This document shows positions 7,029-17,881 of a stretch of 38,561 bases of DNA, piece by piece. Below the pieces are notes generated by a model. That model was not told the DNA's origin, did not search any database, and worked only from the letters and a program-made list of their open reading frames with translations. This DNA is from Trichlorobacter thiogenes. GTDB taxonomy: Bacteria > Desulfobacterota > Desulfuromonadia > Geobacterales > Pseudopelobacteraceae. Position 1 is the first letter of the stretch; each line of letters begins with the position of its first letter. The stretch is from the NCBI RefSeq assembly GCF_900167465.1, contig NZ_FUWR01000024.1, forward strand, positions 1-38,561, in the 5' to 3' direction. Both the position numbers and the translations under genes were made by a program.

Positions 7029-8675
7029 ATGATCATTCAATGCGAACAATGCCGGACCAAATTCAAGCTTGACGATGAGAGGGTTTCGGATCGAGGAGTA
7101 AAGGTCCGCTGTGCCAAGTGTCGCCATATTTTCACGGTGCGCAAGGATGTTGGACAGGCCAGTGCGCCGGTTGAGGTCATGCCTGATCTGGCAGCAGTCG
7201 CCATGGCAGCTCCTGTTGCCGCTGCCGATGAAACGGTTCGTATGAGTTTTACTCCAGCGCCTGAACCTGAAGTCACCGCCTTTGCTGCGGAGCCTGAGGT
7301 TGCCTTTGATTTTGGTGCAGCCCCGGTAGAGGCTACTCCTGCAACTGACACCTCCTTCAGTTTTGAACAAGCCGAAACACCAGCTGCAAGCGATTTTGAC
7401 TTTGGCGATGTCTCCTTTACAACTGAAACACCTGCTGCTACGCCAGCTGCAGCAGATTTTGGCGAAATGACCATGGTTATGCCGCCAAAGCAGGCCGCAG
7501 AACAACCTGCAGAGTTTGGTTTTGATTTTGGTGCAGCACCCGTTGCTGCAGAGAGCGCCCCTGTAGACACCGTTGCCTTTGATTTTGGTGACGCCTTTGC
7601 ACCTGGGGCTGATGTCACTGCCCAGACGTCAGCATTTGACTTTGGTGACCAGGGCACTGCTGCCGTGGCCGCCAGTGGCGAGATTGATCTGGGCGGATTT
7701 GACTTTGGCGATGCACCGGCGGTGGCAGCAGCACCAACCAGTATTGACACCACGGACTTCAGCAACTTTACCGCAGCCTCAACAACAAAATCTGCTGTTG
7801 CTGAATCCAGCTTCAGTTTTGATGAAGTAGCACCCCAGTCCACTGCAACCAGTGGAGACAGTTTTGATTTTTCTGGTGTTGATTTTGGCGACGGCCAGAC
7901 GACAACCAAGACAGCAGCCGCACCGGTTGAAGCCTTTAGCCTGGGAGAGATGGACTTCAGCGGTGATACTGCCGCTGTTGCGGTTGACGCCACGGCAACA
8001 GCGCCTGCAGGCAGCACCCTCTTTGCGCCGGTAGATGAGTCCGTCGCCCGGCAGCAGGAACCAGTAAAGCCGGACATCAGCTTTGACGCACCGGCCGGGC
8101 CAGAAGAGCTTCCACCGTCGTCCATTACGTCACGCCGCCGTCAAGGTTCAAGCATGTCAATTTTGATCGCGGTTATCACCATACTGGTACTCGGGGTTTT
8201 GGGCTACATCGCCTACACCTTTATTGGCAACGATTCAAAAGCGGTCTCCCTGTTTGGTAAACCAGGAGTGGCAGCTGATGATGGCAAGATTACGGTTCAG
8301 AACGTCAAGGCCTACTTTATTCCCAAGGCAACTGCCGGTGAGCTGCTGGTTATTACCGGTGAGGCGCTGAACGGTTACAAAAAACCCCGTGCCGCCCTGC
8401 AGGTAAAAGGGATGGTCTTTGGTGCCACCAACCAGGCTGTTGCTACCAAGACCGCCTATGCTGGCAATCAACTGACCAAAGAACAGCTTGCCGAGATGCC
8501 GGCTGACAAGATTGAGGCTGCCATGAACAACCAGTTTGGTGATTCCCTGACCAACCTGGAAGTGCAGCCGGGTAAGACTATTCCGTTCACCATCATTATT
8601 ATCAACCCACCCACGGATGGTAAGGATTTCGGGGTGGAACCGGTGGGATCAACGGTGGCTACGGCTGGCAAGTAG
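7029..8675 (+). CDS. MJ0042 zinc-ribbon / DUF3426 membrane protein with FDFG-repeat linker
   Basis: Domains in order: an N-terminal MJ0042-type zinc ribbon (residues 1-40, CEQC and CAKC pairs); a long acidic, Ala-rich disordered linker (about 45-370) with six FDFG motifs plus VDFG/ADFG/FDFS variants; one membrane helix (about 377-398, MSILIAVITILVLGVLGY); and a DUF3426 domain (about 410-548). The topology suggests a cytoplasmic zinc ribbon and linker with an extracytoplasmic DUF3426 domain. ATG 7029 is chosen because AGGGAG (7016-7021) is 7 bases ahead and the zinc ribbon starts there; a TTG at 6972 would add 19 unlike residues. The function of this family is unknown. The linker is far longer and more regular than a simple spacer needs to be. 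Confidence 0.88.
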   Translation: MIIQCEQCRTKFKLDDERVSDRGVKVRCAKCRHIFTVRKDVGQASAPVEVMPDLAAVAMAAPVAAADETVRMSFTPAPEPEVTAFAAEPEVAFDFGAAPVEATPATDTSFSFEQAETPAASDFDFGDVSFTTETPAATPAAADFGEMTMVMPPKQAAEQPAEFGFDFGAAPVAAESAPVDTVAFDFGDAFAPGADVTAQTSAFDFGDQGTAAVAASGEIDLGGFDFGDAPAVAAAPTSIDTTDFSNFTAASTTKSAVAESSFSFDEVAPQSTATSGDSFDFSGVDFGDGQTTTKTAAAPVEAFSLGEMDFSGDTAAVAVDATATAPAGSTLFAPVDESVARQQEPVKPDISFDAPAGPEELPPSSITSRRRQGSSMSILIAVITILVLGVLGYIAYTFIGNDSKAVSLFGKPGVAADDGKITVQNVKAYFIPKATAGELLVITGEALNGYKKPRAALQVKGMVFGATNQAVATKTAYAGNQLTKEQLAEMPADKIEAAMNNQFGDSLTNLEVQPGKTIPFTIIIINPPTDGKDFGVEPVGSTVATAGK

Positions 8676-12784: not shown

Positions 12785-12827
12785 GTGGAACGATAAATCT
12801 GGCACAGCTCCTGCTTTTAACTTCTGC

Positions 12828-13433
12828 ATGAAGACACCTCTGACAGATAGGAGCAGGCCTGCAACGGTGCTGATCTGCTCCCCTGATCCGGTTTTTCGGG
12901 ATCACCTGACGCGACTGCTTGCTGCAATCGGCGGCTATCGTGCAGCGGTGTCTGTCAGCCCTGCAGCCGCGCTTCAATCCGCTTTGGAGCAGCCACCGGA
13001 CCTGCTGATCTGCAGCCATGAGCCAGCTCTGTGTGACGGGATTACTCTGACAACATCGCTGCGGGGCAAGGTCTGGGTGCCGGTGTTACTGGCAGCAAAA
13101 AACTGGACACCAGAGCTGGTAAAAGCGGCAGTTACTGCAGGTGTTGCTGCTTTTCTAGCCAGTTTCCCCACAGAGCCTGAGCTGGCACATGCCCTGATTG
13201 AGGCCCGCATCAGGTTGGAGCATGAAGATCTCCTGCGAACCAAACTGCGTGAATCAGAACAACGGCTGGCTGATCGTAAAGTGATTGAAAAGGCGAAGGG
13301 CTTGCTGATGGAGCAAGAACGGATCAGTGAGGATGCTGCATTTAAATTGATGCGGAGCCAGTCCATGACCCGCAGGGTCAGCATGGCGCAACTGGCCGAA
13401 GAGCTGCTTATTTCAATGTCAAATCAAGGATGA
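12828..13433 (+). CDS. ANTAR-domain RNA-binding regulator with degenerate receiver
   Basis: This 201-residue protein has a receiver-like domain (about 10-125), a helical linker (about 126-145) and a C-terminal ANTAR domain (about 145-195: ADRKVIEKAKGLLMEQ...EDAAFKLMRSQSM...MAQLAEELL). ANTAR domains bind paired RNA hairpins with hexaloops and stop terminators from forming. The receiver lacks the phospho-acceptor: the LLDxxMP motif reads LLICSHEP (Ser63), and the conserved Lys is replaced (FLASFP). Phosphorylation control is therefore unlikely in the usual form. It lies 1.6 kb upstream of nifB, whose leader holds an ANTAR-like hairpin competing with a terminator. Geobacter is known to use an ANTAR antiterminator (GnfR) for nitrogen-fixation genes. 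Whether this is that protein, a paralogue or an unrelated regulator is open. The start follows the fabH terminator; no clear ribosome site is seen. Confidence 0.85.
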   Translation: MKTPLTDRSRPATVLICSPDPVFRDHLTRLLAAIGGYRAAVSVSPAAALQSALEQPPDLLICSHEPALCDGITLTTSLRGKVWVPVLLAAKNWTPELVKAAVTAGVAAFLASFPTEPELAHALIEARIRLEHEDLLRTKLRESEQRLADRKVIEKAKGLLMEQERISEDAAFKLMRSQSMTRRVSMAQLAEELLISMSNQG

Positions 13434-13533: not shown

Positions 13534-14439
13534 TTAAAAAAAGCGGCCTGCCGGGCTCGCCATAACCAACCGGTCTGCATGTTCTTCCAGCTCACGCAGC
13601 AGCTTGGGGTCCATCTTCTTCAGCCAGCGTTTAGGGATTGATTCCAGCCCGTAGTAAGCACCGGCCAGCATGCCGCAGATGGCGCCGGTGGTATCAGCAT
13701 CAGCCCCCTGATTCACGGTACCCACCAGACAATCCTCAAAACTTCTCCCCCTGAAAAACCAGTGAAATACAGTCTGCATGGTATCCACGACGTAACCGGT
13801 GGCCAGGCCGCGGTACGGTTCAAAGCAAAACGAAGGAAAGCGGGTGACAAAGCCGTCAACCTCCCGTCGCAGACTGCTTTTCGATGCCCCCTGCAGAATC
13901 TGATGCAGCAGTGTCCCCAGACAAATACAGGCCGCATCGGACAGCGCCTGATGATGGGTCAGCCTGGCCTGCTCCAGCGCATATTTTTTCATCAGCTCAG
14001 TGTCTGGCAGCGACAGCAGGGCAGCCGGCAGCATCCGCATGGCAGCGCCATTGCCACCATCCCACTGATTATACGGCACCTCAAGGGTGCCGTTCAGCAT
14101 AAAGGCCCGGATTCCCTTGCGACAGGTGTCCCCGCAATCCACCGGCCGTGACTTTAGCCAGGCAGCAAACTGCTGGGCAATCGCCTCCCGTGACCAGCCC
14201 TGGTTTTTAGAAACGGCACGGGCAATGCAAAGAGCCATTTCAGTATCATCCGTGACCTGGCCCGGCTTCAGGCGCAACCAGCCACCCCCGATAATCTCTT
14301 TAAAGGTGCCGTATTTGGCTTCAATCTCAGGGGTGGTCATAAACTCAACCGTTGCCCCCAATGCATCGCCGATCGCCATGCCGATAAAGGCGGCGCGGGC
14401 ATGTTCTTTCAGTTCTGTTGGGTCGATGTTCAGGATCAT
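13534..14439 (-). CDS. ADP-ribosylglycohydrolase (DraG family)
   Basis: This 301-residue enzyme is of the DraG/ARH class, which removes ADP-ribose from proteins using two metal ions. Metal-ligand motifs are QVTDDTEMAL (residues 61-70) and GADADTTG (245-252), with the GDALGAT N-terminal block at 24-30. In diazotrophs DraG reactivates dinitrogenase reductase by removing ADP-ribose from NifH. The position next to nifB makes that role possible, but no DraT is in the window and the family also has other substrates. ATG 14439 is chosen because the family domain starts there; ATG 14505 would overlap the divergent gene. It is head-to-head with a macrodomain gene 30 bases away. Confidence 0.88.
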   Translation of the reverse strand: MILNIDPTELKEHARAAFIGMAIGDALGATVEFMTTPEIEAKYGTFKEIIGGGWLRLKPGQVTDDTEMALCIARAVSKNQGWSREAIAQQFAAWLKSRPVDCGDTCRKGIRAFMLNGTLEVPYNQWDGGNGAAMRMLPAALLSLPDTELMKKYALEQARLTHHQALSDAACICLGTLLHQILQGASKSSLRREVDGFVTRFPSFCFEPYRGLATGYVVDTMQTVFHWFFRGRSFEDCLVGTVNQGADADTTGAICGMLAGAYYGLESIPKRWLKKMDPKLLRELEEHADRLVMASPAGRFF

Positions 14440-14469
14440 GAAAAATCTATAAGCAAGGAGTGTTCCCGG

Positions 14470-14904
14470 ATGCGTGAGCAGCAGATTGATATCTGGTCGT
14501 ATCAAGGTCAGGCCATCATTGCCATTACCACCAACGGCTCACTAACCCGCGACGGCAGGGCTATTATGGGCAAGGGGGTGGCCAAACAGGCCGCAGAACG
14601 TTTTCCTGAGCTTCGCAGCCAACTGGGCAGGCTGCTGCAGGTGCGTGGCAATCATGTCCATGAGATCCTGCTTGGGCTGGTCAGCTTTCCGGTGGAAGAG
14701 ACGCCGTTTTCATTGCCTGAACTGAGCCTGATCAGGCGCTCAGCCGAAGAGTTACGGCAGCTGGCAGATCAGTGTGGCTGGAACGCCGTGGTCGTTCCAC
14801 GGCCTGGCTGTGGAGGCGGGGGGATGCGTTGGCAGGAGGTGAAACCGATGCTGGAAGAATTTTTTGATGATCGTTTCATCGTTGTGTCTGCACCAGAACA
14901 GTAA
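14470..14904 (+). CDS. Macrodomain-like ADP-ribose-binding protein
   Basis: This 144-residue protein resembles single-domain macrodomains (ALC1/DarG-like type): AIIAITTNGSLTRDGRAIMGKGVAKQAAERFP at the N-terminus, with a GxGVAxxxAxxFP-type ligand loop, and PRPGCGGGGMRWQEVKPML near residues 114-132 forming the second ligand loop. Macrodomains bind ADP-ribose, and some hydrolyse ADP-ribosyl bonds. ATG 14470 has AAGGAG (14455-14460) 9 bases ahead. It is divergent from the ADP-ribosylglycohydrolase, so the pair looks like an ADP-ribose removal module. A NifA-type site for the nifB promoter sits in its last codons. The physiological substrate is unknown. Confidence 0.8.
   Translation: MREQQIDIWSYQGQAIIAITTNGSLTRDGRAIMGKGVAKQAAERFPELRSQLGRLLQVRGNHVHEILLGLVSFPVEETPFSLPELSLIRRSAEELRQLADQCGWNAVVVPRPGCGGGGMRWQEVKPMLEEFFDDRFIVVSAPEQ
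14885..14900 (+). promoter_or_regulatory. NifA-type upstream activator site (TGT-N10-ACA)
   Basis: TGT (14885-14887), ten bases and ACA (14898-14900) match the NifA enhancer consensus exactly. The centre is about 110 bases before the predicted nifB start of transcription, a usual distance for sigma-54 enhancers. It lies inside the end of the macrodomain gene. Confidence 0.65.
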
Positions 14905-14976
14905 AATTGCTCAATAAAGTATCACCGCCAGGTTGCGGCAACAACCAACACGCTGATATCACTTCAAAATAAAAAC

Positions 14977-14991
14977 TGGCACGCTCTATGC
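14977..14991 (+). promoter_or_regulatory. Sigma-54 (-24/-12) promoter of the nifB operon
   Basis: TGGCACG-CTCT-ATGC matches the TGGCACG-N4-TTGC consensus with one mismatch; GG and GC are 10 bases apart as required. The predicted transcript starts at about 15002-15003. Confidence 0.85.
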
Positions 14992-15006
14992 CTATGGGTA
15001 ATTATC

Positions 15007-15055
15007 CAGGCAACGGCGCCTGCGAAGAGAAATCTTCGTGGCGCCGTTTCTTTTT
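15007..15055 (+). promoter_or_regulatory. ANTAR-type antitermination leader of nifB
   Basis: The leader RNA can fold in two mutually exclusive ways. Form 1 is a hairpin CAGGC-AACGGC-GCCTG (15007-15022) with a six-base loop having A at position 1 and G at position 4, the recognition pattern of ANTAR proteins. Form 2 is a terminator stem AACGGCGCC (15012-15020) with GGCGCCGTT (15040-15048), an inner CGAAGA-GAAA-TCTTCG stem, and TTTCTTTTT (15047-15055). Form 1 uses the 5' arm of form 2, so a protein holding the hexaloop hairpin would allow read-through into nifB. Only one hexaloop hairpin is seen after the predicted transcript start; known ANTAR targets usually have two. Confidence 0.7.
15012..15055 (+). 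terminator. Intrinsic terminator in the nifB leader
   Basis: A strong stem (9 bp plus 6 bp inner, GAAA tetraloop) with a T-rich tail ends 16 bases before the nifB ATG and lies downstream of the sigma-54 promoter. A terminator placed between promoter and gene implies attenuation or antitermination control. Confidence 0.85.
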
Positions 15056-15071
15056 GAAAGGAGTGTAGATC

Positions 15072-15893
15072 ATGGCAACAACCTGTGAGCAGATGAAAAA
15101 GATTCAGGGGCATCCCTGCTTTGAACAAAACCACCACAAGACCGGCCGGATGCATCTGGCTGTGGCACCGGCCTGCAATATTAAGTGCGGCTACTGCACC
15201 CGCAAACATGATTGCGCCAATGAATCACGGCCTGGCGTTACCAGTCGCTTGATGACTCCGTCCGAGGCGCTGGATAAGGTGCGTGAGGTGATGGCCTCCC
15301 CTATCCTGGGGCCGACCATGCGGGTGGTGGGGATTGCCGGACCTGGCGATCCGCTGGCCAATCAACAGACCTTTGAGACCTTCAAGCTGGTGGGTGAAGC
15401 ATTTCCCGACCTGATCAAGTGCATGAGCACCAATGGCCTGCTGCTGCCTGAATCCTTGGACCGCCTGCATGCCCTGGGGCTGCACAGTCTGACCGTCACC
15501 ATCAATGCGGTAAATCCAGAGACTGCAGCGCAGATTTACCGCCATGTCTACTACCACGGCAAGCGCTACAGCGGTAAAGATGCCGCCGAGATCCTGCTGG
15601 CCAGCCAGTATGAAGGGGTACAGCGGGCTGTTGAGCTGGGCATGGTGGTCAAGGTGAATACCGTGTTGATCCCCGGCATTAACGAGGCCGAGGTCCCGCA
15701 GATTGCAGAGCGGATTAAAGGGCTGGGCGCCTTTGTCATGAACGTCATGCCGCTGATTCCCCAGGCAGACTTGGCACATATTCCAGCGCCAAGCACAGAG
15801 CAACTTGCGGAAGTACGTAACAACAACGAGCGGATCATCAGCCAGATGCGGCATTGCAAACAGTGCCGGGCCGATGCAATCGGACTTTTGTAA
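15072..15893 (+). CDS. nifB: Nitrogenase cofactor biosynthesis protein NifB (radical SAM, no NifX domain)
   Basis: NifB is a radical SAM enzyme that fuses two [4Fe-4S] clusters and inserts carbide to make NifB-co, the precursor of FeMo-co. The 273 residues show HPC (14-16), the radical SAM cluster CNIKCGYC (Cys35, 39, 42), the RKHDCANESRPGVTS signature, PGDPLA, and the C-terminal CKQCRADAIGLL (Cys262, 265). The C-terminal NifX/NafY-like domain found in many proteobacterial NifB proteins is absent, so this is the short form. AAGGAG lies 8 bases before the ATG. It leads a nifB-GNAT-nifV-small HTH operon behind a sigma-54 promoter and leader terminator. Confidence 0.96.
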   Translation: MATTCEQMKKIQGHPCFEQNHHKTGRMHLAVAPACNIKCGYCTRKHDCANESRPGVTSRLMTPSEALDKVREVMASPILGPTMRVVGIAGPGDPLANQQTFETFKLVGEAFPDLIKCMSTNGLLLPESLDRLHALGLHSLTVTINAVNPETAAQIYRHVYYHGKRYSGKDAAEILLASQYEGVQRAVELGMVVKVNTVLIPGINEAEVPQIAERIKGLGAFVMNVMPLIPQADLAHIPAPSTEQLAEVRNNNERIISQMRHCKQCRADAIGLL

Positions 15894-15919
15894 GAGATCA
15901 GGAAGAGAAAGGCCGCATT

Positions 15920-16720
15920 ATGCAGATCAGCAACTTCACCCCCAATGATATCCATCCTTTTTTGTCCATGGCAAAAGACGAAGGTTGGATCAGCACTCGT
16001 CATGAGCTGGCCTTTCTGCTGGAACGCTCACCGGAGGGCTGCCTGGTCTGCCATGAGGGTACCAAGCCGGTTGGCTTTGTCACCGCAGTGCGGCATGGCC
16101 GCTCAGGCTGGATCGGCAACCTGCTGGTTACTGCTGATGCACGGGGGCGGGGGATCGGAACATCGCTGTTCAAACAGGCAATGCAGGTACTGCAGCGGTC
16201 TGATGTCCAAACGGTCTGGCTGACCGCATCCCTTGCCGGACGGCCGATCTACGAACGAAGTGGTTTCAGGGTTTGTGATCGTATCAGACGTTGGGAGGGA
16301 ATAGGCACAGAGCCGATTGAGGTGCACGATGCAAAGCCACTGGAACCGGGTTGGGAAGAAATTGATTTTCTGGGCTGGGGTGACTCTCGGAACGAACTAC
16401 TAGCCTACGCCGCATCAAACGGAACAGCAGCCGGGACAGAAGAAGGTTTTCTAGTAGTGCAGCGACTGGGTAGCAGTCAACAGATCGGCCCCTTTGGCGC
16501 ACTGAACAGCGCCACGGCTGAAAAACTGCTTGAACAGATGCTGCCGGGAACCGGAAAGGTACTGCTGGATGTACCGTCATCAAACCGGGTTGCCTCAAAA
16601 CTGCTGACCAGCCGGGGTTTTACGGTTAGCAATGAAGTGGATCTGATGTACGCCGGACAGCCGCCAGCCTACCACGCGGAGCATATTTACGGGCTGGCCA
16701 GCATGGGCAGTATGGGTTAA
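15920..16720 (+). CDS. GNAT family N-acetyltransferase (two-domain)
   Basis: This 266-residue protein has an N-terminal GNAT domain: acetyl-CoA loop VTADARGRGIGTSLFKQAM at about 73-91 and YERSGFRVCDRIRRWEG at about 113-129. A C-terminal half (about 140-266) with a second degenerate GNAT-like fold resembles the YitH/Acetyltransf_18 arrangement. It transfers acetyl groups to an unknown amine. ATG 15920 is supported by AAAGG 7 bases ahead. It is 26 bases after nifB and 15 before nifV, so it is probably co-transcribed. A role in nitrogen fixation is suggested only by position. Confidence 0.85.
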   Translation: MQISNFTPNDIHPFLSMAKDEGWISTRHELAFLLERSPEGCLVCHEGTKPVGFVTAVRHGRSGWIGNLLVTADARGRGIGTSLFKQAMQVLQRSDVQTVWLTASLAGRPIYERSGFRVCDRIRRWEGIGTEPIEVHDAKPLEPGWEEIDFLGWGDSRNELLAYAASNGTAAGTEEGFLVVQRLGSSQQIGPFGALNSATAEKLLEQMLPGTGKVLLDVPSSNRVASKLLTSRGFTVSNEVDLMYAGQPPAYHAEHIYGLASMGSMG

Positions 16721-16735: not shown

Positions 16736-17881
16736 ATGATCAACACAAACAACATCATCATCGATGATACCACCCTGCGGGATGGAGAACAGACCGCCGG
16801 TGTGGTTTTTTCCCGCCGTGAAAAACTGGCCATTGCCCGCCTGCTGGACCTGGTGGGGGTGCAGGAGATTGAATGCGGAATTCCGGCCATGGGAGAGGAT
16901 GAGCAGAACAGCATCCGCGCCCTGGTGGAGATGGAGCTGTCTGCCCGTCTGATCACCTGGAACCGGGCCTTGATCCCTGAAATTCAGGCCAGTATTGATT
17001 GCGGCATTCAGGCCGTTGATATCTCGCTCTCGGTCTCTGATCAGATGATCAGCCGCAAGTTGAAGAAAGACCGCAACGCAGTCAAAGAGCAACTGAAGGT
17101 GGCACTTGGCTTTGCCAAACAGCATGATCTGTATGTCTCGGTTGGTGGTGAAGATGCCAGTCGGGCTGATCTGGGCTTTCTGGTTGAACTGCTGCAGATT
17201 ACCCGTGAACTGGGTGGTGACCGCTTCCGGTTCTGCGATACCCTTGGCATCATGGACCCCTTTACCATGTACGACAAGGTGGCCTGGCTGCGGGCTGCCG
17301 TACCTGAGGTGGAGATTGAGGTCCACACCCACAATGACCTGGGTATGGCCACCGCCAACGCCATTGCCGGAATCAGGGCCGGTGCCCGTTTTGTGAACAC
17401 CACCGTCAACGGCCTGGGTGAGCGGGCCGGCAACGCTGCCCTTGAAGAGGTGGTGATGGGGTTGAAGCATGCCTGCGGTATTGAGACCGGCATTGATACC
17501 CATCGATTCCGCGAACTGTCCCTGATGGTGGCCAAGGCCTCCCGGAGGGAGCTTCCCTCCTGGAAGGCAGTGGTGGGAGAGCGGGTCTTTGCTCATGAAT
17601 CAGGGCTGCATGCCGATGGCGTCCTGAAAGATCCCCATAATTATGAGGGGTTTGATCCGGCAGAGGTGGGGCTGGTGCGCCAGATTGTGGTGGGCAAGCA
17701 TTCCGGTGCCAGCGGCATGATCGAGCGCTATCGCGAGCTGGGAATTGTGCTGTCCCGTGATGATGCCGGGCTTTTACTGCCGGTGGTACGGCTTGAGGCG
17801 TTACGCCGCAAGCGTGATCTGAAAGACCGGGAACTGGTAAATATTTATCTAAACGGAGCAGAGCTGCTGAAGGCAGCTTAA
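16736..17881 (+). CDS. nifV: Homocitrate synthase
   Basis: NifV condenses acetyl-CoA and 2-oxoglutarate to R-homocitrate, the organic ligand of FeMo-co. The 381 residues carry DTTLRDGEQTAGVVF (11-25), the metal ligands in EVHTHNDLGMATANA (about 197-211), NGLGERAGNAALEEVV (about 222-237) and the HESGLHADGVL block (about 285). The sequence follows the NifV pattern rather than the 2-isopropylmalate synthase pattern, lacking the C-terminal leucine-binding domain. AAAGGAG lies ahead of the ATG. The nif operon context strongly supports NifV over a lysine-pathway enzyme. Confidence 0.95.
   Translation: MINTNNIIIDDTTLRDGEQTAGVVFSRREKLAIARLLDLVGVQEIECGIPAMGEDEQNSIRALVEMELSARLITWNRALIPEIQASIDCGIQAVDISLSVSDQMISRKLKKDRNAVKEQLKVALGFAKQHDLYVSVGGEDASRADLGFLVELLQITRELGGDRFRFCDTLGIMDPFTMYDKVAWLRAAVPEVEIEVHTHNDLGMATANAIAGIRAGARFVNTTVNGLGERAGNAALEEVVMGLKHACGIETGIDTHRFRELSLMVAKASRRELPSWKAVVGERVFAHESGLHADGVLKDPHNYEGFDPAEVGLVRQIVVGKHSGASGMIERYRELGIVLSRDDAGLLLPVVRLEALRRKRDLKDRELVNIYLNGAELLKAA

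Follow-up and report, generated by a model that had tools for sequence, protein, structure and literature searches.

What lets a transcript that starts in front of nifB in Trichlorobacter thiogenes reach the gene? In the 38,561-nt stretch of DNA analysed here (the window), the leader of nifB holds a hairpin that overlaps an intrinsic terminator, and an initial annotation had read this arrangement as a gate: an RNA started by sigma-54 polymerase would be let through by an RNA-binding protein of the ANTAR type. Such a system has a reported counterpart in Geobacter sulfurreducens, where Ueki and Lovley are said to have described in 2010 a GnfR/GnfK system that antiterminates part of the nif genes, with an ANTAR-type regulator, master control of its gene and a His-Asp phosphorelay. 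The available part of PMC7962754 calls gnfR the response regulator of nitrogen fixation and gnfK the kinase, and Geobacter is counted among the organisms with ANTAR RNAs linked to nitrogen use in that of PMC8164766.

The nifB leader of Trichlorobacter thiogenes

The sequence TGGCACGCTCTATGC (TGGCAC-N5-TATGC; 14977..14991, forward strand) precedes nifB and carries, at the fixed spacing, the GG at -24 and the GC at -12 of a sigma-54 promoter. In all 65 family nifB leaders the top-scoring site 5' of the hairpin element is a GG/GC box at the same spacing, which bears out the promoter proposed initially. These leaders were obtained from 76 genomes of the family, 66 of them with a nifB match; upstream DNA was read for the 66 primary copies and for four of the 11 second copies, and the primary copy of one genome (G036), located at a contig end, was left out. 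With +1 placed 12 nt past the final base of the -12 element, the RNA is predicted to start at about 15003 and the GGC arm of the hairpin at +7. The nifEN promoter of G. sulfurreducens is of the sigma-54 type by primer extension, according to the available part of PMC2725144.

The TGT-N10-ACA sequence noticed further upstream does exist (14885-14900, within the upstream ORF 14401-14904). As a NifA-type enhancer site it was rejected: such a sequence occurs in 5 of 65 family leaders, which is chance level (about 3.6 expected; 0.056 per 250 nt).

The leader RNA contains the hairpin CAGGC-AACGGC-GCCTG (15007..15022, forward strand), a predicted antiterminator of 5 bp recognised from sequence, folds and family comparison. 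Its six-base loop AACGGC (15012-15017) has the A1 and G4 of ANTAR targets, and the hairpin reaches -7.0 kcal/mol when folded alone. The intrinsic terminator (15012..15055, forward strand; folds, and paired changes in relatives) consists of a stem at 15012-15048 and a T-rich run at 15049-15055, which ends 16 bases 5' of the ATG at 15072. Its stem takes up the loop and the 3' arm of the hairpin, so that bases 15012-15022 are common to both structures. The RNA 15002-15074 folds with a z-score of -4.79, which 0 of 200 shuffles equalled. When the transcript is folded as it grows, the hairpin (-7.3 to -9.2 kcal/mol) stands until about 15040; terminator pairing appears from 15043 with -15.2 kcal/mol and reaches -27.3 kcal/mol by 15049. 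The mutual exclusion claimed for the two structures is thus reproduced by the predicted folds, with the switch at about 15040-15043. Two simple terminator scans missed this terminator, the stem of which has one unpaired base, and an Rfam search of the whole window at gathering thresholds gave no match.

The leader is followed by a short-form nifB of the radical SAM type (15072..15893, forward strand; TIGR01290, E 9.8e-100, 334.3 bits, just below the cut-off of 343.65). A GNAT acetyltransferase gene (15854..16720) and nifV (16736..17881), both on the forward strand downstream of nifB, are possibly transcribed in the same unit.

Related leaders in the family and the order

The case for the switch had been made to depend on conservation of the hairpin in relatives, and the element is kept in all 65 family nifB leaders. 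The motif GGCAAYG lies within 220 nt of every primary nifB copy, together with the promoter box, and the loop has A at positions 1 and 2 and G at position 4 throughout; the search pattern required these bases, and no leader failed it. Among the second nifB copies the element was absent from all four that were read. Second copies at L119-L121 have another leader terminator lacking the hexaloop, with the form GGAGGCCG...CGGCCTC in L120 and L121. Outside the order, GGCAANGNNGCC was found in 0 of 33 nifB leaders (rate in shuffled leaders 0.0), and 3 of the 33 passed a less strict search for an A1/G4 hexaloop of any sequence on a 5-bp stem with T5 after it. This set excluded L076, L079 and L082, of which two are fragments from a single Geobacter genome and one is a partial match. 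An A1/G4 hexaloop from outside the order was seen in a Bacillota MAG nifB contig (L051, about 1092-1150), where GAGGC-ATAGGC-GCCTT overlaps a terminator-like repeat.

The terminator pairs of the nifB leaders change together among relatives. In the nifB hairpin three inner pairs are nearly invariant and the outer pairs showed no clear covariation support, the outer pair being formed in 24 of 64 leaders. Leaders of nifH are more informative on one point. T. thiogenes has a second leader with the same loop AACGGC before nifHDK (contig C33), and GGC-AAAGGC-GCC or a close form occurs in 28 of 30 nifH loci fetched from the family, in which 65 genomes have nifH; the two genomes lacking the element at the fetched site (G056, G059) have matches to the covariance model R3 beside another nifH copy. 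In 26 distinct rows the outer pair of the nifH hairpin is AU in 16, CG in 6, GU in 2, UA in 1 and unpaired in 1, and its covariation score exceeds those of all 500 shuffles, in statistics that ignore relatedness. This pair falls at a base that is bulged or left out of the terminator stem. Changed-pair and pair-type counts over the nifH hairpin were not above shuffles (465/500 and 116/500 as high), so that covariation support for this hairpin amounts to one pair. The outer pair is formed in 19 of 25 other leaders, which were chosen by model score after exclusion of one R3 match without a hexaloop (G070:C35).

The search with a covariance model across related nif leaders that the initial annotation had suggested was carried out with R3, which was built from nifH leaders only. 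R3 recovers the nifB leader of T. thiogenes (E 7.1e-5). With E up to 0.05 it has matches in 71 of the 76 family genomes, and with E up to 0.01 in 133 of the 141 genomes that represent the order, most of these matches being counted without single inspection. Twenty extra matches were fetched, and 19 have the element. The genes downstream are nifEN in 11, nifX-like in three, nifV in two, ETF in one and unassigned in two; for the four named kinds, one gene apiece was checked against Pfam, and the others were called by reading. T. thiogenes itself has two further, weak and partial R3 matches, C33:112997 (E 0.023) and C29:115741 (E 0.031). Its nifEN has a -24/-12 site and neither attenuator nor GGCAANG, and by eye no GGCAANG was found upstream of two nifH-like genes on contig C31 and one on contig C23. 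A second match of R1 in G060 was rejected as a plain terminator without a hexaloop.

Further structures came up in the nifH leaders. By eye, L216 (about 7175-7200) and nifH leaders among L227-L256 have a hairpin just 5' of the nifH ribosome site, such as GCTCAC-GGATTG-GTGAGC or CCCAC-AGATTG-GTGGG, with arms that seem to covary and a loop RGATTG or RGATGA. The nifH leader L314 (G132) apparently holds two hexaloop-terminator units in tandem.

The ANTAR protein and its gene

A protein of 201 aa (12828..13433, forward strand; start codon uncertain) with a receiver-like domain and an ANTAR domain (PF03861, E 2.9e-19) is encoded 1.6 kb upstream of nifB. Its PF03861 match (13257-13409) is the single one in the T. 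thiogenes genome, which makes it the only ANTAR protein detected there; PF00072 stayed under the cut-off. The protein aligns along its full length to 1s8n and to EutV (6wsh). In the family, PF03861 matches 70 of 76 genomes, and 55 of the 66 genomes with nifB have the ANTAR gene on the same strand at most 10 kb upstream of it (median 1.9 kb); in ten it lies elsewhere or on another contig, and in one it was not found. Two near-complete genomes (G035 and G075, loci L123 and L151) keep the ANTAR gene and have no match for nifB (E 1e-60) or nifH (E 1e-100).

The space between the ANTAR gene and nifB is occupied by a DraG gene (13534-14505, reverse strand; TIGR02662, 444.6 bits against a cut-off of 337.05) and by the ORF 14401-14904 (forward strand), which is weakly DarG-antitoxin-like (36.1 bits against a cut-off of 250). 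With these two, ADP-ribosyl control of nitrogenase would lie beside the RNA switch.

Residues Arg142, Lys149, Glu160 and Tyr164 of EutV touch the hexaloop, according to the available part of PMC8934654. With this numbering transferred through the alignment to EutV 6wsh, the first three are kept in 49 of 49 ANTAR proteins, and the position of Tyr164 is Tyr or Phe in all 49. The nifB leader resembles the EutV system of Enterococcus faecalis, as far as it is laid out in the available parts of PMC8934654 and PMC3369931, in these RNA-contact residues and in an A1/G4 hexaloop that overlaps the stem of an intrinsic terminator.

The receiver is another matter. The phospho-acceptor Asp is missing in 15 of 15 Trichlorobacter genomes and replaced by Ser in T. 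thiogenes. Other ANTAR proteins of the family (27 read, the fragment L127 left out) keep the Asp in 26 cases and the full D-D-D-T-K set in 25, the exceptions being L137 and L151; in other families, 2 of 7 proteins read (G106, G131) have Glu at this position. GnfR/GnfK, with which the locus shares an ANTAR-type regulator and would share nif antitermination and control of the antiterminator gene, reportedly works by a His-Asp phosphorelay, for which all 15 Trichlorobacter proteins lack the usual acceptor. Similar in this respect would be NasS/NasT, NasR/nasF and AmiC/AmiR, which serve nitrogen metabolism and in which ANTAR output is not switched by classical phosphorylation. They differ in that control is exerted by a bound sensor protein or a sensor domain. 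The Trichlorobacter receiver has lost the usual site of phosphorylation, so that the gate would be set by the amount of ANTAR protein, or else by a ligand or a partner.

The sequence TGGCACAGCTCCTGC (12800..12814, forward strand) before the ANTAR gene is itself a -24/-12 match of the sigma-54 type. All 15 ANTAR genes of the genus have such a match upstream of the receiver, compared with 0.18 expected by shuffling, as predicted for an antiterminator gene under sigma-54. So do 28 of the 32 from outside the genus, compared with 0.38 expected; four have none. These counts cover genes with more than 200 nt of upstream DNA, two with less being left aside. Sigma-54 promoters before ANTAR genes have been predicted in other proteobacteria (PMC12316311, available part).

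One hexaloop and the proposed switch

The target of EutV, as described in the available part of PMC8934654, comprises a recruitment hairpin (P1) and an antitermination hairpin (P2), both hexaloops being needed at a set spacing. A linker longer by 20 nt abolishes antitermination, and in the published model an ANTAR dimer visits the two hexaloops in turn, beating the moving polymerase. The same text asks how much single hexaloops matter. The initial annotation had seen only one in the predicted nifB transcript, and rightly so: the GGC arm begins about 6-7 nt from the predicted +1, and a hexaloop about 7 nt from the RNA start leaves no room for P1 of the EutV model. With this start, no second hexaloop lies upstream at the set spacing. 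By analogy with EutV, which uses P1 for recruitment and a fixed linker, this would speak against an ANTAR switch with a single hexaloop.

The nifB leader could nevertheless be an ordinary dual-hexaloop target, if transcription started upstream of the point predicted from the -24/-12 box or if our scan missed a weak P1. Besides the precedent of EutV with its P1 and P2, leaders from beyond the family point this way. Among 31 nifH leaders of other families, their starts checked, 14 are listed as having an upstream hairpin with a stem of 5 bp or more and a 6-nt loop, in which position 4 is G in all 14 and position 1 is G in 13 and A in one. An upstream A1/G4 hexaloop is present in two leaders of G106 (L316 and L317), of which one belongs to nifH and the other to an unassigned gene. 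From these hairpins, dual forms may exist in the order. Within the family the numbers run against such a target, as 52 of 65 nifB leaders have a GGC arm that begins between +5 and +15 (between +42 and +73 in the other 13), and P1 candidates (A1/G4 hairpins with a stem of 4 bp or more, located 5' of the main hairpin and after +1) were found in 1 of 65 nifB leaders with 0.27 expected and in 0 of 28 nifH leaders with 0.51 expected, or 3 of 28 if 3 bp are allowed. None was seen in the leaders read outside the family, two of nifB and six of nifEN. We regard a dual target at nifB as unlikely. A hairpin of the form GAATAC-GNYGNN-GTATTC, found 5' of the ANTAR hexaloop in nifH leaders of families f2-f4 (L312, L322, L323, L340, L343, L346), could be either a P1 variant or a DNA inverted repeat.

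It is less likely still that the GGCAACG element is read by another RNA-binding protein, or by a DNA-binding regulator near +1, while the ANTAR protein acts elsewhere. The stem of the g4 nifB leaders has three contiguous pairs, so that sequence rather than structure might be read, and the match between protein and leader is imperfect across the order. Twelve genomes have no ANTAR match, and R3 matches in ten of them; seven of the ten are less than 90% complete, which does not apply to G003 (90%), G086 and G087, and the latter two have the hexaloop before nifEN. A repeat search for an ANTAR protein in G003, G086, G087, G097 and G136, made without a positive control, returned no match. Conversely, six genomes have an ANTAR protein and no R3 match: G013, G062, G063 and G072, which do carry the nifB leader, and the aforementioned G035 and G075. 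Against another reader stand the covariation of the outer pair in nifH leaders and the fixed loop base G4, which is among those contacted by EutV (PMC8934654, available part). Also, the distance between hairpin and promoter varies from +5 to +73 and the overlap with the terminator is kept, as expected for an RNA and not for a DNA site. That the terminator is a mere insulator or constitutive damper is hardly credible: terminator-like sites are frequent under loose criteria (7 in 2 kb, 1.9 expected), but in the nifB, nifH, nifEN, nifX and nifV leaders read a terminator stands between the promoter match of the gene itself and the start codon, and its 5' arm is common to the hexaloop hairpin.

The nifB leader is therefore very probably a transcription attenuator that is opened by the nearby ANTAR protein after a sigma-54 start. 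This reading, as first proposed, gains support from the linkage of the ANTAR gene to nifB (55/66), the invariant A1 and G4, the covarying outer pair of nifH leaders and the sharing of the element by several nif operons, all of them comparisons of sequence. In the mechanism we propose, sigma-54 polymerase with an enhancer-binding protein would start the nifB RNA at about 15003 and would also transcribe the ANTAR gene, whose own -24/-12 match would serve as promoter. The earliest RNA to leave the polymerase would fold into the hairpin 15007-15022. If ANTAR protein is lacking, the terminator 15012-15055 would displace the hairpin and transcription would end before nifB; if it is present, it would bind the A1/G4 hexaloop and hold the hairpin, a single hexaloop being sufficient, and the polymerase would pass. 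Sigma-54 and its activator would thus make both the ANTAR protein and the nif leader RNAs, a feed-forward AND switch.

The kind of switch is already known, given the nif antitermination attributed to GnfR and the ANTAR RNAs tied to nitrogen use in Geobacter. For a leader with a single hairpin at the start of the RNA, and for a receiver that has decayed, a search of the open literature (subscription papers lay outside it) returned no description. A stronger claim would be that a single A1/G4 hexaloop is enough for ANTAR antitermination of nifB throughout the order, and that the Trichlorobacter antiterminator does without phosphorylation and depends on dosage instead, forming the second input to a feed-forward AND gate with sigma-54; on present comparisons we hold the odds of this to be even. 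If one hexaloop is indeed enough order-wide, the P1 recruitment step of the EutV model would not be general. The nif leaders of the order form a natural test set, with one hexaloop in those nifB and nifEN leaders that were read, an extra hairpin in some nifH leaders outside the family and a decayed receiver in one genus. For the organism, the arrangement suggests that synthesis of the nitrogenase cofactor is gated twice.
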